A stretch of DNA of 64,000 nt, taken from an uncultured bacterium (GTDB lineage: Bacteria > Krumholzibacteriota > Krumholzibacteriia > LZORAL124-64-63). The translations under genes were made by a program, and so were the position numbers. The stretch spans positions 94,987-158,986 of the forward strand of contig CAIOLW010000036.1 in assembly GCA_903859215.1 (NCBI GenBank). The letters are read 5' to 3'. Positions 11,699 to 27,337 of the stretch are shown piece after piece. The number at the start of each line of letters is the position of its first letter. Position 1 is the first letter of the stretch. The notes under the pieces were generated by a model. That model saw only the letters and a list, made by a program, of their open reading frames with translations. It had not been told where the DNA came from and did not search any database.

Positions 11699-12634
11699 AT
11701 GATGGAATTCTTCACGAAGACAAACTTCAAGTTCACCGGAGCAATGAAGTTCAACTTCACGCTATCGGGGATCGCCTTTGTCGCGAGCATTGTCCTGCTC
11801 ATCGCGCACGGCGGGCCGCGCTACAGCATCGACTTCACCGGCGGTTCCGTGCTGCAGGTGAAGTTTGCGCCGTCGCCGGGTATCAGCCAGGTGCGCGGCG
11901 TGCTCGAGAAGGGCGGCGAGGCGGGCGTCCAGGTGACGGAATTCGGCGCTTCCGACGAGTTCCTCGTCACCCTGCCGGCCAGGAAGGGCGCCGAGAGCAC
12001 CGACGCCACGCGCGTGGCGAAGGTGGCGCTGGATCAGTTGCACCAGGCCTTCCCGAACTCGCAGATCGATGTGCGGCGCACCGAGTCGGTGGGCCCCAAG
12101 GTCGGTGGCGAATTGCGTACCGCCGCCGTCAATTCGGTCATCGTCGGCGTGTTCCTGATCGCCGTCTATGTCTGGTTCCGGTTCGTCTTCCGGTACGGCA
12201 TCGCCGCCATCATCGCGCTGTTGCACGACGTGATGCTGACGCTGGGTATCTTCTCGCTGCTGAACCTCGAGGTCAGCCTGCAGATCGTTGCCGCGCTGTT
12301 GACCATCGTCGGTTACTCGATCAACGATACGATCGTGGTCTTCGACCGCATCCGCGAGAACATGGGGCTGCGCCGCAAGGAGAGCTACCGTGAGGTGATC
12401 AACCGGTCGATCAACGAGACGCTCAGCCGCACGATCCTGACCTCGCTGACCACCTTCACGGTGGCGGTGGTGCTGTGGGCCATGGGCGGTCCGGTGATCC
12501 GGGACTTTGCGTTTGCGATGAGCTTCGGCGTGTTCGTTGGTACGTACAGTTCGATCTTTATTGCCAGTCCGTTGTTGGTGTGGTGGTCGGACAAGCAGAT
12601 CAACGACAAGAAGCGCGCCTCCCCGGCGATGTAG
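11699..12634 (+). CDS. secF: Protein translocase subunit SecF
   Basis: SecF (311 residues) partners SecD. Diagnostic sequence includes the first membrane segment followed by YSIDFTGGS (about residues 42-50), the post-periplasmic block RRTESVGPKVGGELR, and the membrane core with LHDVMLTLG and SINDTIVVFDRIREN. GG...SRTILTSLTT is also typical. Two adjacent ATG codons (11699 and 11702) are possible starts; GGGAAAGG is upstream. An earlier in-frame extension would read through the SecD C-terminus and is not used. Two bases after its stop codon the terminal repeat of an insertion sequence begins, so its native downstream region has been displaced. Confidence 0.95.
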   Translation: MMEFFTKTNFKFTGAMKFNFTLSGIAFVASIVLLIAHGGPRYSIDFTGGSVLQVKFAPSPGISQVRGVLEKGGEAGVQVTEFGASDEFLVTLPARKGAESTDATRVAKVALDQLHQAFPNSQIDVRRTESVGPKVGGELRTAAVNSVIVGVFLIAVYVWFRFVFRYGIAAIIALLHDVMLTLGIFSLLNLEVSLQIVAALLTIVGYSINDTIVVFDRIRENMGLRRKESYREVINRSINETLSRTILTSLTTFTVAVVLWAMGGPVIRDFAFAMSFGVFVGTYSSIFIASPLLVWWSDKQINDKKRASPAM

Positions 12635-12700: not shown

Positions 12701-13801
12701 TCACACGGCGAATTTCAGTTCATGCCGCCTCTGCAACGCCAGTACTCGGGTGTCGATTGTTTTCCTGTAGTATTCGCCCCATCGCTGCGGCAGGTCGATC
12801 CGGCTGACGAACAGGCGTCGGCTGAGCACCTCATCAACTTCCAGTCGGTGGTCCAGCATCCCTCGTTCCTGCGCCGGCGTGGGGCTCCACCGCACCTTTT
12901 CACGTCGTCCCTTCATGTAGTTGCGCCACACCAGGAACACCGCCAGCCGTTCCGCGCTTGCCTGCCGACGCTTCGACCAGGCGATCGTCTCCCGTTTGTG
13001 GTTCGCGCTGCTGTGTCGCAACAGGAGATCGGCGAGATTCACCGGGAACAACGGGTTCCGGCCATCACGGCGTTCCCGGCTCGACGTCACGATGTGCGTC
13101 ACCTGGCAGTCCAGTGTCGCGATCGCCCGGGGGTACGTCCGGTGGTCGTCGCTCAGCACGGTCAGGCGCGGTTGGCTCCCTGCCACGACCTGCAGCAGGT
13201 GGGTGACGTCCTTGAGCACCGCTTGGGGGTCCGGTCGCCCGTGCTGCGCTTCGAGGCGCTCCCGCTTGAGCTTCTGGGCGGGAGTCATGGAGCCGGAACG
13301 GCGAACTTCACTGTCGGTGAAATAGACGATGAAGTCGGACCCGGGTTCGATCGCCAAATGGTGGTGGAAGGGCCAGTACTGGGAGTGCTCGAAGGTGACG
13401 AAGCCGTCGATCGCCACGGTTGATACCGGAGGGGCTTTGCGCATCAGTTGAGTGTGCAACAGCAGGCAGTGGCGCCCAAGGCGTCCGAGCTGACGATCGA
13501 CGGTCGATGGCGCCACGCGCAGGTCGCGCGCAATCTGCCGGTTGGCCATTCCGCCGGTGGTCTTGGTCATCAGCAGGGGTAAGACGTCCGGCCGCTTCAG
13601 CCAATAGGTCGCGCTGAAGGTCTGGGAGCTGAAAGAGCGCCGGCAGTGCTTGCAGATCCACCTGGGGATACGGTGTGGGGCCAGGCGTCGCCCGTAGTAG
13701 CCAATGCGTTTGTAGCGGGAAACGGAATCGAACTGCTTGTGATACATGCAGTTCGGGTTGGGGCAGTGCGGCGGGATGTAGTGTGCGGTGTTGTTGTCCA
13801 T
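12701..13801 (-). CDS. Zinc-ribbon DDE-type transposase
   Basis: This is a 366-residue transposase and the only gene of the element. Its N-terminus is a zinc ribbon (CPNPNC, residues 13-18; CKHC, 50-53, then RRSFSSQTF). A helix-turn-helix follows (GGMANRQIARDLRVAPSTVD, about 83-102). The catalytic core shows AIDGF (Asp132) and VLSDDH (Asp218/219), with Glu271 or Glu284 as candidates for the third acidic residue. N-terminal zinc ribbon plus HTH plus DDE recalls the IS1/IS1595/ISL3 group, but I cannot place it in a named family. The ATG is preceded by a hairpin at the right end of the element. The gene appears intact, with no stop or frameshift. Confidence 0.75.
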   Translation of the reverse strand: MDNNTAHYIPPHCPNPNCMYHKQFDSVSRYKRIGYYGRRLAPHRIPRWICKHCRRSFSSQTFSATYWLKRPDVLPLLMTKTTGGMANRQIARDLRVAPSTVDRQLGRLGRHCLLLHTQLMRKAPPVSTVAIDGFVTFEHSQYWPFHHHLAIEPGSDFIVYFTDSEVRRSGSMTPAQKLKRERLEAQHGRPDPQAVLKDVTHLLQVVAGSQPRLTVLSDDHRTYPRAIATLDCQVTHIVTSSRERRDGRNPLFPVNLADLLLRHSSANHKRETIAWSKRRQASAERLAVFLVWRNYMKGRREKVRWSPTPAQERGMLDHRLEVDEVLSRRLFVSRIDLPQRWGEYYRKTIDTRVLALQRRHELKFAV

Positions 13802-13855: not shown

Positions 13856-14998
13856 CTAGCGGATCATCGGGAAGGGCGATTCGCCCGTTGCCCCATGGCA
13901 ACTCAAACACGCCCTCCCCTCGTCATGCCCCTCATCATGGCACTTCTTGCACAACTGCCCCTGCCCGTTCCCCGGATAAGGGCTCGGCAACGGGTACGAC
14001 CCCGACGCCACGCCGTCATCCACCAGTCGCACCAGCCGGAAATCCCAGCGACCCGCCGCCGGCGCCGACGAGGCGTGCGCGCGGTGGCAGGTCAGGCACA
14101 TGATGCGGTCGGTCGCCACCGGCCCGTCCGTCCCGGTGGTGGATGTCGCCGGGCCCTCGAAGGGCACCTGGGGGATGTATGCGGTCGCCGTCATCCCGCC
14201 CCTGGGATTCGCGTCGCCTTCGTAGCGGTTGTACCGGTTGCGGACGTCGTCCTCGAGGTTGTCGTCGACCGGATGCCGGAAAGCCGAGCCGCTGCCCTCG
14301 CTGTGGTATTGCCCGTGGCAGTTCGCGCACCACAGGGACATGCCGGCGTGGTAGGCCGTGTGCCGGTTCGGCGATTCGCCGGCGCCGGGGTTCGTGATAT
14401 CGAGCCCCTCGGCGACGGGCGCCGGGTAGACGAAGACGGCCAGGCCGCCCTGAACCGGCCCCGGGCCGTGCAGCATGCGGTAGCCGCCGCCGCCGTGGGG
14501 GTCGTGGCAACTGGTGCAGCCGAGGCTGGCCGATGGGAAGGTCCCGCCGGGGGCGCGATCCCAGCGGGAGTCCGCGCCGGTGCCGCGATCCGGCGAGTTG
14601 ATGCAGTGGCCCGCGGCGTCGCCCGCGATGGCGCTGCCGGCGCCGTCGTTGAGGTTGTCCTCGAGCAGCCACGTGAAGTTTCCGGCCCCGTATTCGGTCG
14701 GGGGCGCCATCGGCGTCGCGCCGAAGACGCCGTTGCCGCGGCCGTGGCAGGTCAGGCAGAGGTCGGTGGACGATTCGGCGGCCAGCAGCGGGCGCGAGCC
14801 GTCGAGGGCGATCTGGCCGGTCGCGGCATCGTGCATCAGGTGGCAGATGGCGCAGGAACCGACGCTGCCGCCGTGCACGACGGCGGCGGCGGGTGCGGGC
14901 ATCGCCGCCAGCCCGAAGAACGCCGTACCCGCTGCGGCAAGCACGGCGCGAACCCGGGGGCCGCGGCGGAAGTGATGGGCCATGTGGGACAGTGACAT
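13856..14998 (-). CDS. OmcS-like multiheme c-type cytochrome with a seventh heme motif
   Basis: This is a 380-residue secreted cytochrome with seven CxxCH motifs (CAICH, CLTCH, CTSCH, CANCH, CLTCH, CKKCH, CLSCH). The first six align in order and context with the six of OmcS, the Geobacter nanowire subunit, as I remember its sequence: VHGGSVG..C..CH..H at the mature N-terminus, APGGTFP...L.CTSCHDPHG, GMSLWCANCH, CLTCHRAHAS and a final C.KCH. The His three residues after the first heme motif (His56, mature position 16 if cleavage precedes Val41) corresponds to the OmcS residue that ligates a heme in the next subunit. The seventh motif lies in an added tail (EGRACLSCHGATGE). ATG 14998 is chosen; a TTG at 15016 would extend it by six residues. 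It lies just downstream of the hexaheme paralogue. Confidence 0.85.
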   Translation of the reverse strand: MSLSHMAHHFRRGPRVRAVLAAAGTAFFGLAAMPAPAAAVVHGGSVGSCAICHLMHDAATGQIALDGSRPLLAAESSTDLCLTCHGRGNGVFGATPMAPPTEYGAGNFTWLLEDNLNDGAGSAIAGDAAGHCINSPDRGTGADSRWDRAPGGTFPSASLGCTSCHDPHGGGGYRMLHGPGPVQGGLAVFVYPAPVAEGLDITNPGAGESPNRHTAYHAGMSLWCANCHGQYHSEGSGSAFRHPVDDNLEDDVRNRYNRYEGDANPRGGMTATAYIPQVPFEGPATSTTGTDGPVATDRIMCLTCHRAHASSAPAAGRWDFRLVRLVDDGVASGSYPLPSPYPGNGQGQLCKKCHDEGHDEGRACLSCHGATGESPFPMIR

Positions 14999-15147: not shown

Positions 15148-16239
15148 CTACAGCTTGTCGAAGGCGTCCTTCGCATGGCACTTGTTGCACAGCGACTTCT
15201 GCTCAGCCACGAACGTGTAGCCGTAGTACTTCCGGTCCACGTCGGTCTGGATGAAGCCGGTGTCCGTCGCCAGCGGGTGCGACTCGGACATGATGCGGGC
15301 CGTCATGTCCCAGCGCGCGCTGTCCTGGAACGGCGAGGCATGGGCGCGGTGGCAGGTCAGGCACATGACTTCGTCGGTGCCCGTGGGGCCCTGCGTGTAG
15401 TTCGTCGAGTTGACGGTGGCCACGTCGACGGTGACGGCCTCGAAGGGCACCAGGCCCCAGTACGAGGTGGCAGCGTTGCCGCTGACCAGGTCGTCCGTGC
15501 TCACGTAGGCGTTGTAGGCGCCGGCGATCGACGAGCCCATCGCGCGGGTCGGGTGCACGAAGTTGGTCGTGTTGTCGTCATGGAAGTTGGCGTGGCAGTT
15601 CGCGCACCACTTGCTCATGCCGCTCTTGTACACGGTGTGGGCGACGTTGGACTCGATGCCCGTGCCCGACGTGGTCGTGCGGCTGTTGCCCTTGGCCAGG
15701 GGAGCCGGGTTGGCGAACGAGTAGCGGCCGCCGGCGTAGTAGGGGCCCATCTCGGTGCCGTACAGCAGGCGGAAGTTGTCGTTGCCGTGGGGGTCGTGGC
15801 AGCTGGTGCAGCCCATCTGGCCGCTGACGAACGTGCCGCCCGGCGCGCTGGCCAGCGTGGCGTCGGCAGCGAGGCCCTTGGTCGGCGCCACGATGTTGTG
15901 GCCGTGGCTGTCGCCCTTGCTCATGACCGTCGAGCCGCGGCTCACCCAGCTGAACGTGCGGCTGACCCAGTAGAAGTCGCCGCCGGCGCCGAAGCCGGTG
16001 CCGCTGGCAAACTGACCGTAGGCGGCGTGGCAGCGCAGGCAGGTGTCGCTGGCGGTGCCGGTGTTCAGCAGGAACTCGTTGCCACTGGGATGAGCGGCAT
16101 CCACGAGGGCGCCATTCTGGCTGTTGTGCATGGTGTGACAGCCGGCGCAGTAGGCAACGCCACCGTCATGGAATGCGAGCACCGAGCTGGCCGACAGGCC
16201 GAGCGCCAGCACCAGGGCGATCTTGATGAGAGTCTTCAC
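15148..16239 (-). CDS. OmcS-like hexaheme cytochrome, probable nanowire subunit
   Basis: This 363-residue protein has a clean signal peptide (MKTLIKIALVLALGLSASSV then LA) and six CxxCH motifs: CAGCH, CLRCH, CTSCH, CANCH, CLTCH, CNKCH. Its resemblance to Geobacter OmcS, recalled from memory, runs over the full length: FHDGGVA.C.GCHTMHNS at the mature start, GGDFYWVSRTFSW, GHNIVA, SAPGGT, CTSCHDPHG, GMSKWCANCH, a VPFE segment, CLTCHRAHASPF and the final LCNKCHAKD. OmcS polymerises into micrometre-long conductive filaments; His16 of one subunit ligates a heme of the next, and the equivalent His (residue 38 of the precursor) is present. GTG 16239 has GGAGG 8 bases upstream. It follows the beta-propeller gene and is capped by an 18-bp hairpin. 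Confidence 0.9.
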   Translation of the reverse strand: MKTLIKIALVLALGLSASSVLAFHDGGVAYCAGCHTMHNSQNGALVDAAHPSGNEFLLNTGTASDTCLRCHAAYGQFASGTGFGAGGDFYWVSRTFSWVSRGSTVMSKGDSHGHNIVAPTKGLAADATLASAPGGTFVSGQMGCTSCHDPHGNDNFRLLYGTEMGPYYAGGRYSFANPAPLAKGNSRTTTSGTGIESNVAHTVYKSGMSKWCANCHANFHDDNTTNFVHPTRAMGSSIAGAYNAYVSTDDLVSGNAATSYWGLVPFEAVTVDVATVNSTNYTQGPTGTDEVMCLTCHRAHASPFQDSARWDMTARIMSESHPLATDTGFIQTDVDRKYYGYTFVAEQKSLCNKCHAKDAFDKL

Positions 16240-16352: not shown

Positions 16353-17321
16353 CTATTCAACTGCCCCGTCGGCCAGGACGCTGAATACCTGCACACGGCC
16401 TTTGAAACCCTGCGCCACGTAGAGGTGGCCGGTCCCATCCGCCGCCATCGACACCGGGTGATAGAAGGCGCCCGGGGCGTCCCCGATCGACCCGTATTCG
16501 TACTTGAACTCGTGTCCGGCATTGAAGGCCAGGATCTTGTGCCGCAACTGGTCCAGGACGAACAGGCCGCCGTCGGGCCCGGCAGCGGCCGCTACGGGGA
16601 AGAACATCCGGCCCGGCGACGAGCCGACCCGACCGAACGACTCCAGCTGCTTGCCTTCCGCACTCAGGACCAGCACCACGTGCAGGTTGCCGCCCGGCAC
16701 GCAGATCGTGCCATCGCCCAGTTCCGCGGGACGGCCGAGGTCCATTTCCAGCGACTTGTCGTCGGACTGCCCGTCGCCGATGGTCGCCGACCACAGGAGG
16801 GCGCCGGTGTTCGCATCGTGCTTGGCCAGGACGCCGCTGGTCGTGTCGAGCGTCAGGTAGTTCCCGTCGTGCATGACGACCAGGTGGCCCGGCTTCCAGC
16901 CGTTCGCCGGCGCTTCCGGCCGGTAGCCGTCGGGCTCGCCGTAGATGTCGAGCCGGGAGATCGTGCCGCGCTGGCCATCGACCAGCGTCGTCGCCACCAG
17001 CCGTCCTTCGTGGTCGACCGTGCCGTCATTCGGGCTCAGGAGGTTCGCGAAGCCGCCCGAGCGGAAAGTCTCGACGCCGGCGGCATTGAACACGTGCAGG
17101 GCGCTGTAGGCGGATTCGGTGACGCAGACTTCGCCGTGGTTCGCGTCACAGGAAACCGCCACCGGCCGCGCCTGGCCGTTGTGGTCCTGGGAGAGTTCCA
17201 GCGTGCGCTCGTACCGGATCGACATGGCACCCGCGACAGACGCGAACCCCGACAGCGCTGTTAGCGCGGCAACACCTGCAACGGTCATCTTCAGGTGGTG
17301 ATGGGGGCGATGGGGGTTCAC
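16353..17321 (-). CDS. Secreted NHL/beta-propeller protein
   Basis: This 322-residue protein has a His-rich N-terminus and a hydrophobic signal (MTVAGVAALTALSGFASVA, cleavage near VAGA). The mature part is built of repeated blades of about 45 residues with NHL-like character: PVAVSCDANHGEVCVTESAYSAL, FANLLSPNDGTVDHEGRLVA, FFPVAAAAGPDGGLFVLDQL and YHPVSMAADGTGHLYVAQGF are recognisable blade cores. NHL-repeat genes stand next to omcS/omcT in Geobacter as I recall, so it may assist assembly or surface attachment of the cytochrome filament; it carries no CxxCH itself. The start may be GTG 17321 or ATG 17288. It is the first gene after a strong promoter (17387-17414) and the cytochrome gene follows 113 bases later. 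Confidence 0.75.
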   Translation of the reverse strand: MNPHRPHHHLKMTVAGVAALTALSGFASVAGAMSIRYERTLELSQDHNGQARPVAVSCDANHGEVCVTESAYSALHVFNAAGVETFRSGGFANLLSPNDGTVDHEGRLVATTLVDGQRGTISRLDIYGEPDGYRPEAPANGWKPGHLVVMHDGNYLTLDTTSGVLAKHDANTGALLWSATIGDGQSDDKSLEMDLGRPAELGDGTICVPGGNLHVVLVLSAEGKQLESFGRVGSSPGRMFFPVAAAAGPDGGLFVLDQLRHKILAFNAGHEFKYEYGSIGDAPGAFYHPVSMAADGTGHLYVAQGFKGRVQVFSVLADGAVE

Positions 17322-17612: not shown

Positions 17613-20600
17613 CTAGGAACCATCCCGCTTGGCGCGCAGCTTGTCGGTGTGGCAGCCGATGCAGAGCGCGCCTTCGGGGTTGTCCCGGAGGAACCGCACG
17701 AACGCGGTGCCGTGCGGCTCATGGCAGCTGACGCAGGTCATCTTGCCCCCGGTGCGCGGGTCCTTGAAGTTGTCGCCCATCGGGTGGTCGGTGTGGTCCC
17801 GGTAGGCATGGCAGTTCAGGCACACCTCCCGGATCTTCGTGCCGTCGGCCGCCTTTTCCGCCACCAGGTGCGGATTGTGGCAGACCGTGCATTCCTTGCC
17901 GTCAACCAGCGGGTGCTTGTGCGCCGCGGTCCGGTTCGTTTCCACCTTGGCCTGGTGGCACTTCCCGCAGACGGCCGACTGCTGCCGCGGCAACAGCGGC
18001 GCGTACGGTGCCGTGTGTGGTGAATGGCAGATGGTGCAGGCTTTCTCGCCCTTCAGCGGCGCATGCATCTCTCCGGTCTTGAGGTCCTCCTTCACGCCGT
18101 CGTGGCACCCGAAGCACAGCTCCGGCTGGCGCGCCTTCGTGGCGGTGGTGGTGCCGACATGGCACGCCGCGCAATTGCCCGCGGCGAACGGCTTGTGCAC
18201 GTTCTCATGCGGCAGGTTGGCCAGCTTGGACGCATGGGGCGTGTGGCAGCCGGCGCAATCTGCGGTCGCCACCGGGAAGCCCTTGTGCTTGGCAGCCAGG
18301 GACGCCGGTTCATGGCATTTCACGCACAGCACCTTCGTCTCGGCGATCAGGCTCATGGCCACGGGGCCCCCGTGCGGGCTGTGGCAGCGTGTGCAGGCGC
18401 CCGTCTTGAAAGGCGCATGCACAACCGGCAGCTTCTTCAGTTCGTCGATCTTCTGGTGGCAACTTGTGCAGAGCACGGCGGCCGGCTGCGTCAGCAGTTT
18501 CGGTTCGGACGAAGCGTGGGGGTTGTGGCACGCTTCACAACGACCCTCACGGAACGGGGTGTGCGCCAGCTCGGGCTTCGGCGCCAGCCCGGCCAGGTCG
18601 TGGCAGGCGGCGCAGGTGTCGGCCGTCCGCTTGCTGTTGAGCTGGTGATCGCCCCGGGCCACGTGCGGGTTGTGGCAGGCGGTGCATTCCCCTTCACCGA
18701 ACGGGGGATGCACGGTCTTGCCCTTGGCCGTCGCATCGGGCAGGCCGTCGTGGCACTGCGTGCACGTGGCGGTCTGGTTGACGATCGGCTGGGCGTCCAC
18801 ATGACACGTGGCACAGTCTCGGTCCGCGAAGGGCGGGTGCTCCTTGGCCACCAGCAGGCCCTTCACGGTCGAGTTGTGCGGCTCGTGGCAACCGAGGCAG
18901 TTCAGCCCGGCCGCCTCGCGCCCGAGGTGCTTGTCGGCGAAACCCTTGCTCTTCTCGTCGTGGCACTGGAAGCACAGCGCCGGGACCTTTGCCCGCAGGA
19001 AGGCGTGCCCCTGGCCACCGTGAGGCAGGTGGCAGGACAGGCATTCGCCCTGGCTCGGCGGGTGGATCGACACGGCGTTCTTGGGCGCGGCGATGGACTC
19101 GTGGCACAGGCCGCACAGCTTCGTGGCGTCCGTCGACAGCAGCGCCTTGCGGGGGGCGTTGTGTGGGTCGTGGCAGGCCGTGCAGTTGCCCTTGGCCACG
19201 GGTTCGTGGCCCTGCCAGTTGTCGCCGGTCGGCTGGCCGACATCGTGGCATCCGGCACAGGTGGCGGCCACGGGCTGCCGCAGCAGTGCGCGCTCCGCGC
19301 CGCCGTGCGGCAGGTGGCAGTCCACGCAGGCGCCGTCGGCCGCGGGCGGGTGCACCGTACCGCCGGCCGGCTGCTTGGAGAGATCACCGTGGCAGTCCGC
19401 GCACAAGGCGGCCGCGGGCTTCTTCAGAAGCGCCGGCTGGTCTGAAGTGTGCGGCAGGTGGCAGGCCAGGCACTCGCCCCGCGCGGCGATGTCGTGCGTG
19501 TGCGGTGCCGCGAGTTCCATCGCGACCTTCGTGTGGCAGCCCAGGCACAGGTTCCCGGGTCCCTTGACCAGGAGCTTCTGCTCCTCGGAACTGTGCGGGT
19601 CGTGGCACACCGTGCAGGCCTGCTTGGCGACGGGAGCATGCACCAGTCGGCCTTCCACGGGCGGCACCGGCACGATGTCGCCGTGGCAGCCCACGCACAG
19701 CTTGTTCGTCTCTTCCTTGAGCAGCTTCGGCCTCTCGCCGCCGTGGGGGGCGTGGCACGTGGTGCAGTTGCCCTCGGCGGCCGGCGCGTGCCGGTTCGTG
19801 TGGTCGAACGCGGTCTTGTCGTGGCACTCGAGGCACAGCTTGCGCTGGCCGGAAACCAGCATCCCGGGCCGTGCGCTCCCGTGCGCGGCATGGCACTTCG
19901 TGCACTCATGCTCGGCGGCAGGCGGATGGGCGACCTTGGTCGTGGTCGCCGGGTCGTCGTGGCACTGCACGCAGAGGTCGGCGAGCGGTACGGTGAGGGC
20001 GCCGGGCGCGGCTCCCGGTGTCGCGTCGTGGCACGAGGAGCATTCTCCGCCGGCCACGGGTGCGTGCAGCACCGCGTAGTCGAGGTGCTCGCCGTCGGAG
20101 CCGTGCGGGTCGTGGCAGGACACGCAGCCGGCGACGCCGCCCTTGTCGCCGTGCACCTTGGCGAGCTTCGCCTGGTCCTTGTGACAGGACAGGCACAGCT
20201 GGTCGCTCGGCTGCTTCAGCAGGCCGGCGTTGGCCGAAGCGTGGGGGTCATGGCACGCGATGCAGCCGCCCTGCGCCAGCGCCTTGTGCGGGTGCTTGCG
20301 GTTGAACGGGACGCGGTCGTGGCAGGCGAAGCAGCTCTCGTCGCCGGCCGCCTTCAGCAGGTTCGGCTGGCCCGTGCCGTGCGGGTTGTGGCAGCCCGTG
20401 CAGTCGCCCTGGCGCAGCGGGGCGTGCACGGGACCGCTCTTGAGGATCTCGCCGAATTCCTTGTGGCACTCCAGGCACAGTTCGCGCCCGGTGGCCTTGA
20501 GGACGAGCTTGCCGATGACGCCGTGCCGCCGGTGGCAACCCTCGCATTCGCGCGCGGCGAAGGGCGCGTGCGCATTGCGCGTGCTGACCTTCTTGATCGC

Positions 20601-20747
20601 TTCCTGGTGGCAGTCCGCGCAGGCCTTGCTCTTGAAGCCGCCGGCAGCTCGGGCCGGCCCGGCGTGGAACGCGACCGAGGCCACCAGCGCCAGCGCCAGT
20701 GCGGCCGCGCGAAGGCGGCGGGGGTGTACATCGATGCAGCGAATCAC
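17613..20747 (-). CDS. Giant multiheme cytochrome c with 42 CxxCH motifs
   Basis: This is a 1044-residue secreted protein with a signal peptide (AAALALALVASVAFHAGPARA) and, by my count, 42 CxxCH motifs, or about one heme per 24 residues. The repeat is a paired-motif unit of about 50-60 residues: HAP...G.C..CH.PHG....LL.......LC..CH, matching the doubled-CXXCH families. It is iterated about twenty times with little else. Extra histidines (HAP, HPP, CHDPH) supply the second axial ligands, so most hemes are probably bis-His. There is no membrane anchor or lipobox, so it is periplasmic or exported. GTG 20747 has AGGAGG 7 bases upstream. It ends a run with the barrel, CsgG-like and prolyl isomerase genes, 20 bases after the latter. 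Likely role: long-range electron wire or charge store between inner membrane and surface. Confidence 0.9.
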   Translation of the reverse strand: MIRCIDVHPRRLRAAALALALVASVAFHAGPARAAGGFKSKACADCHQEAIKKVSTRNAHAPFAARECEGCHRRHGVIGKLVLKATGRELCLECHKEFGEILKSGPVHAPLRQGDCTGCHNPHGTGQPNLLKAAGDESCFACHDRVPFNRKHPHKALAQGGCIACHDPHASANAGLLKQPSDQLCLSCHKDQAKLAKVHGDKGGVAGCVSCHDPHGSDGEHLDYAVLHAPVAGGECSSCHDATPGAAPGALTVPLADLCVQCHDDPATTTKVAHPPAAEHECTKCHAAHGSARPGMLVSGQRKLCLECHDKTAFDHTNRHAPAAEGNCTTCHAPHGGERPKLLKEETNKLCVGCHGDIVPVPPVEGRLVHAPVAKQACTVCHDPHSSEEQKLLVKGPGNLCLGCHTKVAMELAAPHTHDIAARGECLACHLPHTSDQPALLKKPAAALCADCHGDLSKQPAGGTVHPPAADGACVDCHLPHGGAERALLRQPVAATCAGCHDVGQPTGDNWQGHEPVAKGNCTACHDPHNAPRKALLSTDATKLCGLCHESIAAPKNAVSIHPPSQGECLSCHLPHGGQGHAFLRAKVPALCFQCHDEKSKGFADKHLGREAAGLNCLGCHEPHNSTVKGLLVAKEHPPFADRDCATCHVDAQPIVNQTATCTQCHDGLPDATAKGKTVHPPFGEGECTACHNPHVARGDHQLNSKRTADTCAACHDLAGLAPKPELAHTPFREGRCEACHNPHASSEPKLLTQPAAVLCTSCHQKIDELKKLPVVHAPFKTGACTRCHSPHGGPVAMSLIAETKVLCVKCHEPASLAAKHKGFPVATADCAGCHTPHASKLANLPHENVHKPFAAGNCAACHVGTTTATKARQPELCFGCHDGVKEDLKTGEMHAPLKGEKACTICHSPHTAPYAPLLPRQQSAVCGKCHQAKVETNRTAAHKHPLVDGKECTVCHNPHLVAEKAADGTKIREVCLNCHAYRDHTDHPMGDNFKDPRTGGKMTCVSCHEPHGTAFVRFLRDNPEGALCIGCHTDKLRAKRDGS

Positions 20748-20767: not shown

Positions 20768-22117
20768 TCAGTGGGCCGCGGGGGCGGCGGGCTGCGCGGT
20801 GGCCTTCTTGAATTCCTCGATCGCCTTCAGGACTTCCGCCTCGGCGCCGGGCAGCACGACAACGGGGGAAGCGGCCTTGAGCCGGGCCAGGATTTCGACG
20901 AGGTGGTCGCGCGTCGCGTCCCGTTTCATCATCGCCAGGACCTGGTCCCGGCACGACTCCAGCGGCTGGGGCTGCCCGCCCTCGAGGCCGCTGATCTGCG
21001 CCACGACCCAGCCGTCGGGGACCTCGTACGGTTCCGGCACCGCGTTCAGCTTGAGGTCGGCCGGTTTGAGGCCCATCTCCACGGGCTGCAGCCAGACATC
21101 GGGGAACGGGGGCGGGCCCTGGATGACGCGCTTGTCGTTCTCGGCCAGCCATTTGAGGGCCGTGCCCGACTCGAGCCGCGCGCGCAGGTCGCCCGCGATC
21201 TCCTTCGTCTTGACCTTGAGGCTGCCGACCTTCACGCGTGACGGCATCAGGAGATCGCCCGTGTGCCCCCGGTAGTAGTGCGAGACTTCGGCGTCGGCCG
21301 GCTTGAAGTCGAATTCCAACAGGACGCGCAGCGCCTCTTCCTGGATCGAACTGCGCTCCATGCGCTGGCGGAGAAGCACCATCCCGGGCTGGCGATCCAT
21401 CTTCTGCGCCCTCATCTGGGCGTTCGCCAGCACTTCCTCGACGTACGAGCGCAGGCACAGGTCGCGTTTTTCGGCGGCATCGGGCTTGCCGACCAGGCCG
21501 TGGTATTGCTGGAACCGGAGTTCACGCGAGAAATCGGCAACCGTCAGCTTGCGTCCGTTCACCAGGTTGGCGAGCACCTCAGTGCTTTCGCGCAGCCGCT
21601 TCTGCACGGCGGGGTCGGCCGACCCGTAGTCCAGCGACTTCAGCAACATGGAATCGACCGTGACGTTGAAGGTGCGGGCCAGCCCGGCGAGATAGCCCTT
21701 CACCGCGTCCCGACGCTTGTCGTGCACGGCGGGAGCATCCGCGGGGATCGACAGCGCGACCGAGTCGAGCAGCGCCTTCATGCATTCGTGGCGCACGGCC
21801 TCGTTGCCCTCGTTGCGGACGGCGAACTCCTGGTCCAGGCCCATGCGGTAGCCTTCCTGGATGATGAGTTCGTTCTGCGTCAGCCGCTCGAGGATCGCTT
21901 TCGGATCCGCGAATTTCGCGGCCACGTTGTCCGCGTTCCTGGCCTGCATGAGGCCCAGTTCGAGGTCCAGTTCGGCCGTCGTCACCGTGTCGGTCCCGAC
22001 GGTGGCGAGCGGCACGGGCCGCTGGTCGGCCGCGCGGGCCGCGGCTGCGCTCACGAGCGCGAACACGGCGATGAGCGCCAGGTTGGACCGCAACGGGCGA
22101 AGTGGGCGGGTGGTCAT
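20768..22117 (-). CDS. Periplasmic peptidyl-prolyl isomerase / chaperone (SurA/PpiC-like)
   Basis: This is a 449-residue protein with a signal peptide (NLALIAVFALVSAAAARA), then a SurA N-terminal-like helical part (VGTDTVTTAELDLELGL, ERLTQNELIIQEGY) and a C-terminal parvulin-like domain: VKVGSLKVKTKEIAGDLRARL, then VPEPYEVPDGWVVAQISGL near residues 360-380 and the helix LESCRDQVLAMMKRD. It should fold or escort exported proteins in the periplasm. Genes for prolyl isomerases accompany omcS-type loci in Geobacter as I recall, so it probably serves the multiheme cytochromes or the barrel. ATG 22117 overlaps the stop of the upstream gene (ATGA) and has GGAGG 9 bases upstream. It ends in a short Ala/Pro tail. 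Confidence 0.75.
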   Translation of the reverse strand: MTTRPLRPLRSNLALIAVFALVSAAAARAADQRPVPLATVGTDTVTTAELDLELGLMQARNADNVAAKFADPKAILERLTQNELIIQEGYRMGLDQEFAVRNEGNEAVRHECMKALLDSVALSIPADAPAVHDKRRDAVKGYLAGLARTFNVTVDSMLLKSLDYGSADPAVQKRLRESTEVLANLVNGRKLTVADFSRELRFQQYHGLVGKPDAAEKRDLCLRSYVEEVLANAQMRAQKMDRQPGMVLLRQRMERSSIQEEALRVLLEFDFKPADAEVSHYYRGHTGDLLMPSRVKVGSLKVKTKEIAGDLRARLESGTALKWLAENDKRVIQGPPPFPDVWLQPVEMGLKPADLKLNAVPEPYEVPDGWVVAQISGLEGGQPQPLESCRDQVLAMMKRDATRDHLVEILARLKAASPVVVLPGAEAEVLKAIEEFKKATAQPAAPAAH

Positions 22118-23166
22118 GAGGTAGGATCCTCCAGCAGGTGTTTGAAACGCGGCCACAGGTTCTCGGCGCCTTCGCGCATCTGGTCCAGTTCGGTCATCGG
22201 GTGGATGACGCCGAACCAGCCGGTCGGCGTTCCTCCCGGCATCATGATGCTCGACGCCGCCCGGATCCGGCCGGTGCGCAGGTCGAGCAGGCGCAGCGTG
22301 ATGGTCATGTCGGTCACCTGGCGGGGACCGGCAGCCGGGCCGTCGGCCAGGTAGTCGGGCGCGGCGTTGGCGTTGCCGTCGACCTGCCCGAAGGACACAA
22401 CCTCGGGCAATACGACCCACGTGATGCCGAAGCGTTCCGCCAGCTGGGCCCTGCCTTCCTTGTCCAGGCGCGCGGGGTCTCTTCCCGTGTCCAGGGCCGA
22501 GCCCGCCGCCAGCGCGGGGTCGATGACGGACCAGTTCGTATCGGCCACGGCCGCCGCCAGGAGGCAGGCGGTCGCCGTGCGCACGGCCTGCGCATCCAGC
22601 CCGATGCCCCGGCTGGACAGGATCAGGAGCGGCGCGCCGCCTCGATGGCCGGGCGCGTCGGGCGGCATGGCCCGCCGCAGGGCGTCGGCCAGCGACCGCT
22701 GCCAGGTGCCCTCCGAAACAGTCGCCGCGGCGATGCCGAGCGCCTCGACGCGTCCCTGGCCCGTGCCGATGGCCCGTACCGTCGCGGTGAGCGATCCGTT
22801 GTCCGCCAACACGGTCACCGCCAGCAGTGTTTCCGCTCCGAGCTCGCTGCGCAGGTCGGCCAGGAAGGCGGCAGGCAATGCGGCGCAGCTGCGCACGCGG
22901 TGGCGCCGCACCAGGTCCTCGGTCCCCGCGCGGTCGGCCGCCGGACGATGGGAAGCTCCCGTCAAGGCTGTCAGGATCTCGAGGGCTGCCTGGCGGATCA
23001 CGGCGGCATCAGGCGGCAGGCCGGGCATCGGCGCGCCTTCGAGGTTGAACACGATGGCGACGGACTCGGGTTCGTCGGCACGGGCCGCGCTGGGCACGGA
23101 CAGGAGCGCCGTCAGGAGCAACCCGGCAGCCAGGCCCAGGTGAGTTCCGTGCCTGAGGGTCTTCAT
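22114..23166 (-). CDS. Secreted CsgG/TolB-like protein of unknown function
   Basis: This is a 350-residue exported protein (signal peptide LGLAAGLLLTALLSVPSAARA). The mature part contains two similar-looking alpha/beta stretches: DAAVIRQAALEILTAL...LGAETLLAVTVLADNGSLTATV, and AVRTATACLLAAAVADTNWSVIDPALAA...ERFGITWVVLPEVVSFGQ, ending in TITLRLLDLRTGRIRAASS. That strand-helix order, with a conserved 'level of component is variable, type of response' layout, resembles the nucleotide-free TolB-N/CsgG fold. Assignment is tentative. Its ATG shares one base with the stop of the lipoprotein gene before it (TGATG), and its end overlaps the prolyl isomerase start, so the three are translationally coupled. 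Confidence 0.5.
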   Translation of the reverse strand: MKTLRHGTHLGLAAGLLLTALLSVPSAARADEPESVAIVFNLEGAPMPGLPPDAAVIRQAALEILTALTGASHRPAADRAGTEDLVRRHRVRSCAALPAAFLADLRSELGAETLLAVTVLADNGSLTATVRAIGTGQGRVEALGIAAATVSEGTWQRSLADALRRAMPPDAPGHRGGAPLLILSSRGIGLDAQAVRTATACLLAAAVADTNWSVIDPALAAGSALDTGRDPARLDKEGRAQLAERFGITWVVLPEVVSFGQVDGNANAAPDYLADGPAAGPRQVTDMTITLRLLDLRTGRIRAASSIMMPGGTPTGWFGVIHPMTELDQMREGAENLWPRFKHLLEDPTS

Positions 23167-23804: not shown

Positions 23805-26012
23805 TCAAAATGTCCAATAACCCCGCAACTGGAATCCGAACGGCCAGCTTTCGCGGCCGAGGAGGCGCTCGTAGCTCTTTTCGGCGCTTCCCGAGAGGGT
23901 CAGGCGGGGACGTGCCTGCCAGTCGACCCCGACGCTGCCGCCGCGGCGCAGGTCGTCGGCCCGCGAGTCCTGGTAGTCGTTCGCCGAGAAGGAGAGCAGC
24001 ACGCTGCCGCCCCGCAGGGGGATCCAGGACAGGGAATTGCGGTAGATCCAGTCTTCCCTCTCGCGCCGCTGGCCGACAGCCTGCCCGGACCACGACAGCA
24101 GGGGCGTGATCTCCCACGAGGCGTCGATCTCCGTCTCGGCGAACGAGGTGAACCCGGCGCCTGCTTCCTGGCCGACCCAGCGCGTGGTGCGCACGAAGTC
24201 CAGCCGCATGCTCGGTCGCGGGGAACTGCGGACCTCGGACGACACGACCCACGAATCGGAATTGCCGTCCAGGGCCGCACTGGTCCGCCAGCCGCGGGTC
24301 ACCTTCTGGTTGAACGTCAGCGCCGGCGCTGCGCGCCAGGTGCCGTCAGCCATGACCGATTCGGTCACCTGGCGGACGCTGTAGGTGTTGTCGTTGGTGC
24401 GCACCCAGGCCATGTGCGCGCCGAAGCGGTCGGTGTTCCGCCGCTGCAGCGAGACCTGGCGGGAGTTGGAGTCGGTCCTGAGCCTCTTCGGGCTGTGCTC
24501 GGCGCTCTCCTGGTACTGGCCGGTCAGGGACCAGCCCCCCAGCAGCCAGGAAGCGAGCACGCCGCCGTTCGTCCGCTCCTGGCGTCCATCGCCGGCGCGG
24601 TCGCGACGGTCGAGGGCGATGTCGCCGTGGACTCGCAGCCGGGACGAGAGCCTGACTTCGACGCCGCCCGTCGCGGTCGTCCGCTCCTGGCGCGAACGCA
24701 ACTCCGGCTGGGCTGTCGTCGCATTCTCCAGAATCTCGAACTCGGTGACGAAGAGGTCCCCGATCGTGGGGCCGATCTTCCGGTCCACAAGCTTGAGGCG
24801 CCGGTGCGTTGCGCCGCCGACGAAGGTGATTTCCCAGCCTTGCCGACCCGTCTCGGACTCCACGTAGCGGGCGCTCCAACTGCCGGCCGGGACCGGGGAG
24901 CCCCAGTCCCTGCCTTCTGCCTCGTCGCAGAAATACAGGTCCCACTGCAGCATTTCCGGCAGGAACGTGACCTTGCGGTCGACATACAGGAACGCGGACA
25001 CCATCGCGACCGGTTCCCCGAAGTCGAGGTAGATGTTGCGGAAGTCGCCGCCGTAGTCGCGACCGGGCGTCGCGTTGTCGCCGAGGTTGATCACCGTGGG
25101 CGTCGAGCGGTCGTTGTCGAAGAGCGCCGGCACGGGCTGAGGCTGGTTCTCCAGGGGGTCGAGGAAACCCGGCGTGTCGTCCAGCCAGAAGCCTCCGGCG
25201 AGCGGCGGCAGGTACTGCTGGCCCGCATCGGCGCTGAAAGTGTTGCGCTGGTTGAATCGACGGTGGTTGATCGACCAGGTCGCGTGGACTGCCTTGTCGC
25301 GAACGAGGTCCCGGTCACCACGAATCTGCAGTTGCTGCGTGTCGTAAACCGTTCGCTGCGAGAGCGTGATCGAATTCAGGTCGACGCGGGAATAGGTGAA
25401 CTCCACGTCTTCGTGGCGGGTCAGGTCCAGGCGCAGCCGGCCGGTGCCGTTGCGCTCGCGGTTCTCGCGATCCTCCGCGTTGCCGCGCCGCCAGCTCGAG
25501 TCGTCCTGATAGTTGGCATCGCCGGACAGGTGCCCGAAACGACCGCTGGTCCAGAGGCCGAATTCGAGGTTGTCGTCGCGCAGCGTCGGCAAACCGGTGT
25601 TGTCCTGGTCGACGCGATTGCCACGGGCGAACAGGCTGGCGCGCAACGGCGTGGACTGCCAGGACAACGTGGCCGACGGCGTCAGCGTGACGGTCGTGTT
25701 GTCGACGCTGGTGCCGGCGGCCGTGCCCTTCAGCAGTTCGCGGCGGGCCAGGTACTGCAGCCTGAAGGAAGCGTTGGGAGACAAGCGGATGGCCTGCTCG
25801 AGGCCGAAGATCTCCCATAGGTTGTCACTGCTGTAGGCCTGGTCGCCGGAACGCCCTTCCTGGTGAAGGGTGCGCACATCCACGCGGCCGTCCAGCGCCA
25901 CAGCCGGCGACCCCACGACGGTGACCAAGGCCAGGCCGACCAGCGCGGAACCGATCGCCAGCGAGGCGCGCCCGCGGCGACTGCGACGCGAATGTTCGTT
26001 CCGTGGCAGCAT
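23805..26012 (-). CDS. Large outer-membrane beta-barrel, candidate porin of an electron conduit
   Basis: From ATG 26012 this encodes 735 residues: an arginine-rich head (RNEHSRRSRRGR), a hydrophobic signal segment (ASLAIGSALVGLALVTVVGS), and a mature part of many short amphipathic strands ending LRGYWTF, with Phe last, as outer-membrane proteins do. Around residues 240-430 there is a globular insert (DYGGDFRNIYLDFGEPVAMV, YVESETGRQGWEITFVGG) that looks like a discoidin/F5-8-type beta-sandwich strand set. The frame is open upstream to a TTG at 26171. Flanked by cytochrome genes on both sides, it is a candidate barrel around a multiheme cytochrome, in the manner of MtrB or PioB, although I see no direct sequence similarity to those. 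Confidence 0.6.
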   Translation of the reverse strand: MLPRNEHSRRSRRGRASLAIGSALVGLALVTVVGSPAVALDGRVDVRTLHQEGRSGDQAYSSDNLWEIFGLEQAIRLSPNASFRLQYLARRELLKGTAAGTSVDNTTVTLTPSATLSWQSTPLRASLFARGNRVDQDNTGLPTLRDDNLEFGLWTSGRFGHLSGDANYQDDSSWRRGNAEDRENRERNGTGRLRLDLTRHEDVEFTYSRVDLNSITLSQRTVYDTQQLQIRGDRDLVRDKAVHATWSINHRRFNQRNTFSADAGQQYLPPLAGGFWLDDTPGFLDPLENQPQPVPALFDNDRSTPTVINLGDNATPGRDYGGDFRNIYLDFGEPVAMVSAFLYVDRKVTFLPEMLQWDLYFCDEAEGRDWGSPVPAGSWSARYVESETGRQGWEITFVGGATHRRLKLVDRKIGPTIGDLFVTEFEILENATTAQPELRSRQERTTATGGVEVRLSSRLRVHGDIALDRRDRAGDGRQERTNGGVLASWLLGGWSLTGQYQESAEHSPKRLRTDSNSRQVSLQRRNTDRFGAHMAWVRTNDNTYSVRQVTESVMADGTWRAAPALTFNQKVTRGWRTSAALDGNSDSWVVSSEVRSSPRPSMRLDFVRTTRWVGQEAGAGFTSFAETEIDASWEITPLLSWSGQAVGQRREREDWIYRNSLSWIPLRGGSVLLSFSANDYQDSRADDLRRGGSVGVDWQARPRLTLSGSAEKSYERLLGRESWPFGFQLRGYWTF

Positions 26013-26217
26013 GGGTTGGACTGCAGCCTCGGCTGGGGATGCTTCGGCGACAGGCCTCGGCCGCGGGCGCTCCCGGGTGCCGGGGCGCGACGGCGCTTCT
26101 AAGTCCTTGTCAGCCGCAGGATTTCGACCGTTACGAGTTAAAAAAATAACAAATCGGACGAAAATAAGCAATCATGAACTTGAGGAATCGCGGCGGGTTA
26201 GGAAATGCCCGGATCGC
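26013..26217 (-). other. Gap between the heptaheme cytochrome and barrel genes
   Basis: The barrel reading frame stays open through most of this gap as far as TTG 26171 but encodes a proline/arginine-rich stretch without a signal peptide. A TTGCTT and TTATTT pair (16-base spacer) on the minus strand next to an A/T run around 26130-26175 could be a promoter for the barrel operon. Nothing else stands out. Confidence 0.35.
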
Positions 26218-27063
26218 CTAGGGGACATTCGCCATCACGGCCATGAGGCGCGTGTCGGCGGACTGGCCGGAGTTCCTCAACTGGTGGCAGCCGAGGCAAA
26301 GTTCGGGCTGCGACGGGAAGGCGACCAGGAGGTCGCGCTGACCGCCGGTCAGCGAGTGGCAGGTCTGGCATTCGACCTTGCCGTCGAACAGGCGCAGGCG
26401 CGGGTCGATGGGTGAACGCAGCCGGCGCTCGTCCCGGCCGGCGCCGGCGACGGCCATGACCCCGAGGGGATGCGTGGCGTGCTGGTCGAACGTCAGCGAC
26501 TGCCCGCCGGTCTCCGCCTGCCAGGTCGAGCCGCCGCCACTGCCGTGGCAGTTCAGGCAACCCTGGCTCGGCGACTGGCCGGCCAGCAGCGCGGCATCGC
26601 GATGGTACAGAGCGGCTGCGGCGCGGTGTGCGGTCGAGAGCTTGCCGAGATCGGCCCCGGGCTCGTGGCAGCCCGCGCAATGGGCGGGCACGCCTTCACC
26701 GAGGCCCTGGACCGACATCTTCAACTCGCCGAGCGATGTCTTGAGGCGACCCAGTTCGTGGAACGTATGGCAACCCGCGCAGTCGGCCGTGGGGTTGTCG
26801 TGGAAGCCGAGCTGGACCATGGCTGGCGAGTCCTTCGCCGCGAGGTCGCGGTGGCAGCTGCGGCAGGTCCGCGAGCGGGGGTCGGGGTCGTTCGGACCGG
26901 CAGCCGCCACGGCCCTCGCGGTGGCGCCCTGGTGGCACCGCGAGCACGCGATGCCTTCATGCGGGTCCGTACCCGACGCCGAAAGCCCGTTCGCAACCAG
27001 GGGGGTCGCGGACAGGATCAGTGCCGATACGACGGCGGGGAGCGTGCGCAAGGTGTCCTTCAT
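26218..27063 (-). CDS. Heptaheme c-type cytochrome, periplasmic
   Basis: This is a 281-residue secreted cytochrome (signal TLPAVVSALILSATPLVA) with seven CxxCH motifs: CSRCH, CRSCH, CAGCH, CAGCH, CLNCH, CQTCH, CLGCH. It lacks the OmcS pattern; instead it carries HEGIACSRCH, FHDNPTADCAGCH, and a long stretch without motifs (about residues 180-235) before the last two. Heme spacing and length suggest a periplasmic or conduit-embedded electron carrier. It is the first gene of the minus-strand series that continues with the barrel. ATG 27063 begins the signal peptide; an earlier in-frame start lies in AT-rich non-coding sequence. Confidence 0.85.
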   Translation of the reverse strand: MKDTLRTLPAVVSALILSATPLVANGLSASGTDPHEGIACSRCHQGATARAVAAAGPNDPDPRSRTCRSCHRDLAAKDSPAMVQLGFHDNPTADCAGCHTFHELGRLKTSLGELKMSVQGLGEGVPAHCAGCHEPGADLGKLSTAHRAAAALYHRDAALLAGQSPSQGCLNCHGSGGGSTWQAETGGQSLTFDQHATHPLGVMAVAGAGRDERRLRSPIDPRLRLFDGKVECQTCHSLTGGQRDLLVAFPSQPELCLGCHQLRNSGQSADTRLMAVMANVP

Positions 27064-27337
27064 GCCGCAAGGTTTCGGATCATTTCTCAAATGCTTTAGT
27101 ATTTTGTTGTTTTGTAATATGGGCCGACAACGCCATGACGGGTCACTTGCAGGACACAATCTGTATTCTGCGGGATACGCGCCGGTGTGTGCGTGTTAAC
27201 ATGGTGCGGAGCGAAACACCGTGCGGACAGGGGCTTGGCGCTCCGCGGGTTGCCATCACCACCCGGCGACTTGCGGCACAGGGATTGCAACCCTTCCCTG
27301 CCCGTGGTCCATCACCGGTACCAACGAAGGTTTCCCG
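27064..27337. other. Divergent intergenic region
   Basis: This region separates the leftward cytochrome series from the rightward kinase operon. The first 60 bases are markedly AT-rich (GTATTTTGTTGTTTTGTAATAT and neighbours), as expected of a promoter for the minus-strand genes, but I cannot define confident -35/-10 pairs on either strand. GAAGG lies 7 bases before ATG 27338. Confidence 0.4.

Follow-up and report, generated by a model that had tools for sequence, protein, structure and literature searches.

Seven-heme paralogue beside a canonical OmcS-like cytochrome

The window analysed here, a stretch of 64,000 nucleotides, encodes two adjacent OmcS-like cytochromes, a six-heme protein (P0002) and, downstream of it, a seven-heme protein (P0001), and thereby raises the question whether the second protein builds a nanowire, as its neighbour presumably does, or serves the wire in another way. 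To our knowledge, no end piece or connector of OmcS-type cytochrome wires has been identified so far, and the position of P0001 beside P0002 makes the question of how such a wire starts, stops or is connected testable. The coordinates of all features are given in Table 1.

The gene of P0001 runs from an ATG at 14998 to 13856 on the minus strand. The N-terminus of the protein comprises an arginine n-region, a hydrophobic segment and a site resembling a cleavage site (AAA), as in a Sec-type signal peptide. The CxxCH motifs follow in the order CAICH, CLTCH, CTSCH, CANCH, CLTCH, CKKCH and CLSCH. While a wire-forming OmcS subunit carries exactly six hemes, this exported reading frame contains seven motifs; P0002 contains six. 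Both proteins match OmcS (PDB 6ef8) in phmmer, P0001 with an E-value of 5.3e-23 in two stretches spanning residues 42-321 and P0002 with 5e-55, and a pairwise alignment of the two (38% identity) keeps all six shared motifs in register. The initial annotation had described P0001 as an OmcS-like paralogue whose first six hemes are equivalent to those of the neighbour, and both statements are borne out by these alignments. It had also noted that the inter-subunit histidine at mature position 16 is kept. This residue, His16 of OmcS, was found as His56 of P0001, whose mature number varies with the cleavage site (17 for AAA|VVHGG, 16 for AAAV|VHGG). An origin of P0001 as a recent tandem duplicate or near copy of P0002 was ruled out by the trees, which place it in a separate, older clade.

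Table 1. Positions of the features discussed in the text (window coordinates unless a locus is named).
Feature	Position	Strand	Basis
Seven-heme OmcS-like cytochrome P0001, clade B3, 380 aa	13856..14998	minus	ORF, OmcS match, tree, predicted fold
C-terminal tail, residues 355-380, past the OmcS end, with seventh heme motif	13859..13936	minus	homologue comparison, VIA alignment, dN/dS
Seventh heme motif CLSCH, residues 364-368	13895..13909	minus	ORF translation, homologue comparison
Tail His358, candidate second axial ligand	13925..13927	minus	homologue comparison
Sixth heme motif CKKCH; wire-type consensus CNKCHxKD lost here	13937..13951	minus	alignment
His56, equivalent of OmcS His16, presumed inter-protomer heme-5 ligand	14831..14833	minus	OmcS match, family alignment; 18/18 B3
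TGTTAGAAT, an extended -10-like element ahead of the P0001 gene	15039..15047	minus	comparison of five genomes
Hairpin of 18 bp, GC-rich, downstream of the P0002 gene	15080..15118	minus	hairpin at the same place in 5/5 genomes with the gene pair (loci of shared ancestry)
P0002 (clade A), canonical OmcS-like protein with six hemes, presumably the wire subunit	15148..16239	minus	OmcS match, alignment, model
NHL-repeat exported protein	16353..17321	minus	cluster comparison
42-heme cytochrome	17613..20747	minus	motif count, alignment to related genera
PPIC-type prolyl isomerase domain protein; alternative start 22420	20768..22303	minus	domain
788-aa exported protein, aromatic C-terminal end, conserved in the cluster	23805..26171	minus	no Pfam match
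Seven-motif cytochrome, not OmcS-like, beside the presumed barrel	26218..27159	minus	motif count
Clade B1 gene	L049 14276-15274	minus
Clade B1 gene	L050 3475-4689	minus
Clade B1 gene	L056 9954-11060	plus
Clade B1 gene	L058 10337-11476	plus

OmcS fold and six-heme core

The AF2 model of P0001 (pTM 0.78, mean pLDDT 73) was compared with the PDB by Foldseek, where 6ef8 was the sole match with an E-value below 0.001 (1.9e-13, TM 0.68). The VIA alignment of the model with OmcS gave a Z of 20.2 and an rmsd of 3.6 over 299 aligned residues; it pairs model residues 2-318 with OmcS 1-407 and stops just past heme motif 6. Although the model of P0002 is weaker (pLDDT 64, pTM 0.65), it showed the same OmcS match. 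Based on its own model, P0001 is predicted to fold like OmcS.

In the family alignment of 54 members, in which the heme 6 region of P0001 is also aligned with OmcS, the histidines of the six CxxCH motifs are kept in essentially all rows, and so is a histidine in each of seven further columns. The further columns correspond to OmcS His2, 16, 110, 147, 216, 226 and 304, numbered as in the OmcS pieces used, from which about 31 residues are missing; the His216 column is kept in 51 of 54 rows. Within clade B3, the group of P0001, the same columns are kept in 18 of 18 rows (one column in 17), including the equivalents of His2 and His16 (both 18/18). Sequence and predicted fold show that P0001 carries the six-heme stack of OmcS.

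His16 of OmcS is the axial histidine donated across the joint to heme 5 of the neighbouring subunit. Of the 12 axial histidines of OmcS, 11 belong to the subunit itself and the twelfth is contributed by the following subunit; in the fibre, the hemes follow the order of the motifs, and heme 505 is ligated by one histidine of the next subunit (Filman et al. 2019; PMC6584659). P0001 shares with OmcS of Geobacter sulfurreducens (GSU2504, PDB 6ef8/6nef) the fold, the six motifs in order, the family histidines including His2 and His16, and the export. It differs in overall sequence (25-28% identity), in altered N- and C-terminal joint segments and in a 26-residue tail with the seventh motif.

C-terminal tail and seventh heme motif

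Since the alignment of P0001 to OmcS ends where OmcS itself ends, the tail is a true extension. Its placement in the AF2 model is of low confidence (mostly pLDDT below 50). The tail was found in eight of the 18 B3 members, from two families of the phylum, and is absent in ten; the seventh motif is kept throughout the genus (four of four genomes) and in another four genomes. All eight tailed members carry a histidine in the stretch that joins motif 6 to motif 7, and in seven the spacing is H-x5-CxxCH. Heme 7 is probably bis-His ligated, by His368 of CLSCH and the conserved His358.

The tail codons showed a dN of 0.07-0.18 and a dS of 1.6-2.8 (saturated), corresponding to a dN/dS of about 0.1 or lower, and the tail is accordingly under strong purifying selection. 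Within the genus, the conservation of tail versus body was 0.69 and 0.73 versus 0.75 and 0.71 for the two nearest species, and 0.38 versus 0.62 for the third. An origin of the seventh motif by chance or by a reading-frame error was ruled out by its conservation and the dN/dS. The claim of the initial annotation that a short tail of P0001 brings a seventh motif holds, and the motif, whose absence from close homologues would have spoken against it, was found in all homologues of the same genus.

On the tree, the distribution of the tail requires two or three gains or losses; one origin followed by losses is possible. The tail is absent from the OmcS-family proteins read from samples of two other phyla, that of a Desulfovibrio MAG (395 genomes) and that of a Nitrospirota MAG (295 genomes), and the open-licence literature yielded no seven-heme OmcS relative. 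Since ten of the 18 B3 members have no seventh heme, heme 7 is not essential to the role of the clade.

Terminal segments

The joint between subunits is likely formed by the first and last motif segments, as the hemes are stacked along the fibre in the order of the sequence and one ligand reaches across to the neighbour. For a comparison of these segments with the interior, 91 wire-type positions were defined by at least 90% conservation in clades A and B2 and OmcS, of which 27 are terminal (first and last motif segments) and 64 interior; a position below half in B3 was counted as lost. According to this definition, 13 of the 91 positions were lost in B3, namely 11 of the 27 terminal but only two of the 64 interior ones (Fisher 1.4e-5). 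The consensus within B3 amounted to 0.56 for terminal positions, with the invariant C and H left out, versus 0.91 for interior positions, while in A and B2 both classes showed about 0.99-1.00. The terminal positions of B3 vary rather than being conserved anew, and the wire-type sequence no longer constrains the ends.

The wire-type terminal segments read FHxGGVAxCxGCHTMHNS and QRSLCNKCHxKD, and P0001 carries neither of them. Taking both segments as a mark of wire formation is our own reading of the present alignment and is unpublished; they might instead serve export or assembly. On the N-terminal side, the joint residues T14, N17 and S18 are also lost in B3. Since this segment is changed too, docking of P0001 on a canonical subunit via His16 is not assured.

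Distribution and canonical partner

The sample of the phylum comprised 80 genomes, 27 of them with OmcS-family members, and the family tree resolves clades A (P0002 type), B1, B2 and B3 (18 rows, including P0001). Each of the 18 B3 genomes encodes exactly one B3 protein together with one or more canonical proteins of type A or B2, in 11 cases on the same contig, while six genomes encode a canonical protein without B3. In the genus of the window and in one further genome (G060), the partner is of type A and adjacent to B3. In the other genera it is of type B2, and the genes of a 26-heme and a 16-heme cytochrome precede B3. In all 64 genome pairs (36 of 36 with B2, 28 of 28 with A), which share ancestry and are not independent counts, B3 was less conserved than the canonical partner.

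A recurrent neighbour is secF, which lies beside B3 in A-type genomes and beside the pair of NHL-repeat and B2 genes in B2-type genomes (window 11699-12634, plus strand; L042, L045, L048, L051, L055, L057, L060). This neighbourhood suggests that the type of the major subunit was exchanged while B3 stayed.

The genome of the window encodes a third OmcS-like protein (G000:C352 7062-8141; L067 7107-8216) with six hemes and a long non-heme C-terminal extension past NKCHAKD.

Gene cluster and intergenic region

In Geobacter, an eight-gene block by omcS (GSU2500-GSU2493, including the 26-heme GSU2495) has been associated with the maturation and secretion of nanowires, and every genome that bears the block also encodes the OmcS-like paralogue GSU2501 alongside it (PMC12977616). 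Since the block next to omcS has a like arrangement, the cluster in the window is of a known kind; its new part is the seven-heme paralogue with relaxed joints. Proteins of the GSU2501 type resemble P0001 as long-diverged OmcS-like paralogues beside nanowire secretion genes, but they are described as hexaheme (PMC12977616), and the two were set side by side by description only. OmcT (GSU2503) is likewise an OmcS paralogue encoded beside OmcS; it is, however, reportedly a more recent OmcS-related duplicate (PMC12977616), whereas P0001 and P0002 fall into deeply separate clades.

The 788-aa exported protein of the cluster is possibly an outer-membrane barrel. Residues 39-649 and 656-1033 of the 42-heme cytochrome align, end to end, with a 26-heme and a 16-heme protein that are separate in related genera, apparently as the result of a fusion or a split. 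A transposase-like gene without Pfam match adjoins the seven-heme gene (window 12701-13801, minus strand). It occupies the same site in two other species at 71-73% identity (L039 14640-15737, L041 7040-8137), an unusual persistence for a mobile element.

Between the two OmcS-like genes, the stop of P0002 is followed by the hairpin, then by TGTTAGAAT and then by the start of P0001. TGnTAGAAT or TGGTATAAT was found at the equivalent place in all five genomes with the gene pair, while the stem sequences of the hairpin differ among them; as the five loci are related, they do not count as independent cases. The hairpin was not listed by the terminator scan, probably owing to its short T run. The simplest reading of this order would be a separate transcription of the seven-heme gene. 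Alternatively, the hairpin could attenuate read-through or protect the 3' end of the upstream transcript.

Possible role of P0001

The explanation we tentatively favour is that P0001 is a subunit of OmcS fold and low copy number that does not propagate the filament, either an end piece or an adaptor, and that heme 7 lengthens the heme chain at the heme 6 end. Exported, apparently OmcS-folded with a six-heme stack, and encoded together with a cytochrome-nanowire cluster, P0001 would probably donate His56 to heme 5 of an adjoining OmcS-like subunit. Since the wire-type end sequence is no longer kept, P0001 most likely does not extend the filament; it would rather sit at the filament end or link the wire to another redox partner. 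Heme 7, just past heme 6, would lie roughly at the site of heme 1 of a next subunit and could act as an electron entry or exit port at this terminal position. Of the two functions proposed by the initial annotation, capping of the filament end fits better with these data than a side heme on each filament subunit.

The latter proposal corresponds to a homopolymer of P0001 with a seventh, surface-exposed heme per subunit. It could draw on the conservation of His2 and His16 in all 18 B3 members, as the role of His16 in OmcS is tied to polymerisation, and on heme 506 of OmcS, which is already exposed to solvent beside the joint (PMC6584659). The filament of the octaheme OmcZ offers a precedent, since each subunit carries a branched, solvent-exposed heme (heme 6) off the main chain, but its fold is unrelated and its axial ligands all come from the same subunit (PMC9473688). 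We nonetheless consider a homopolymer unlikely: the joint segments vary among B3 orthologues, unlike in clades A and B2, the P0001 type is less conserved than its partner in every genome pair, the tail is lacking in ten of the 18 clade members, and the gene appears insulated from that of the presumed wire subunit.

Variable ends would also suit a monomer outside the filament, a carrier on the outer surface or in the periplasm that shuttles electrons between the wire and the large cytochromes, and the position of B3 directly after the 26-heme and 16-heme cytochromes in B2-type clusters would agree with such a function. In a monomer of OmcS fold, however, heme 5 would have no sixth ligand and His16 no task, yet His16 is invariant in B3, which makes a monomeric carrier improbable as well. 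Sparse mixing of P0001 into the P0002 filament, with side hemes as branch points along the wire, is compatible with the common fold, the common gene cluster and the kept His16, but it is very unlikely, as canonical residues are lost on both joint faces and insertion between canonical subunits is the arrangement least compatible with this loss.

As an end piece or adaptor, a B3 paralogue with its intact heme core, relaxed joints and added end heme would represent a concrete candidate for the end or connecting part of a wire. Counts of OmcS-like genes would then overstate the number of wire subunits. The OmcZ study explicitly leaves possible tip proteins out of consideration (PMC9473688).

Related end modifications in other clades

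Modified ends are not restricted to B3. Clade B1 (G039, G053, G056, G070) carries an extra, seventh CxxCH ahead of the His2 equivalent, on the heme 1 side, and a canonical C-terminus. A number of Desulfobacterota paralogues combine a canonical N-terminus with an altered C-terminus, and changed C-termini recur in the OmcS-family proteins of Nitrospirota. Together with the Desulfobacterota paralogues without His16 listed below, this pattern would fit two kinds of end subunit. It is conceivable, though on balance doubtful, that OmcS-type nanowires have dedicated end subunits in the manner of minor pilins, with B3 modified and heme-extended at the heme 6 end, B1 bearing an extra heme before heme 1 and parallels in Desulfobacterota that lack either His16 or the canonical C-terminus, each closing off one wire end by an added heme or a dead-end joint.

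The OmcS-like paralogues without His16 but with a canonical C-terminus were observed in Desulfobacterota (L113 2491-3891 and 4073-5446, minus strand; L115 17744-19201, plus strand; L110 1357-2649, plus strand; L125 676-1893, minus strand). In two genomes (G443 and G234), paralogues lacking His16 occur near canonical copies and copies with a changed C-terminus.
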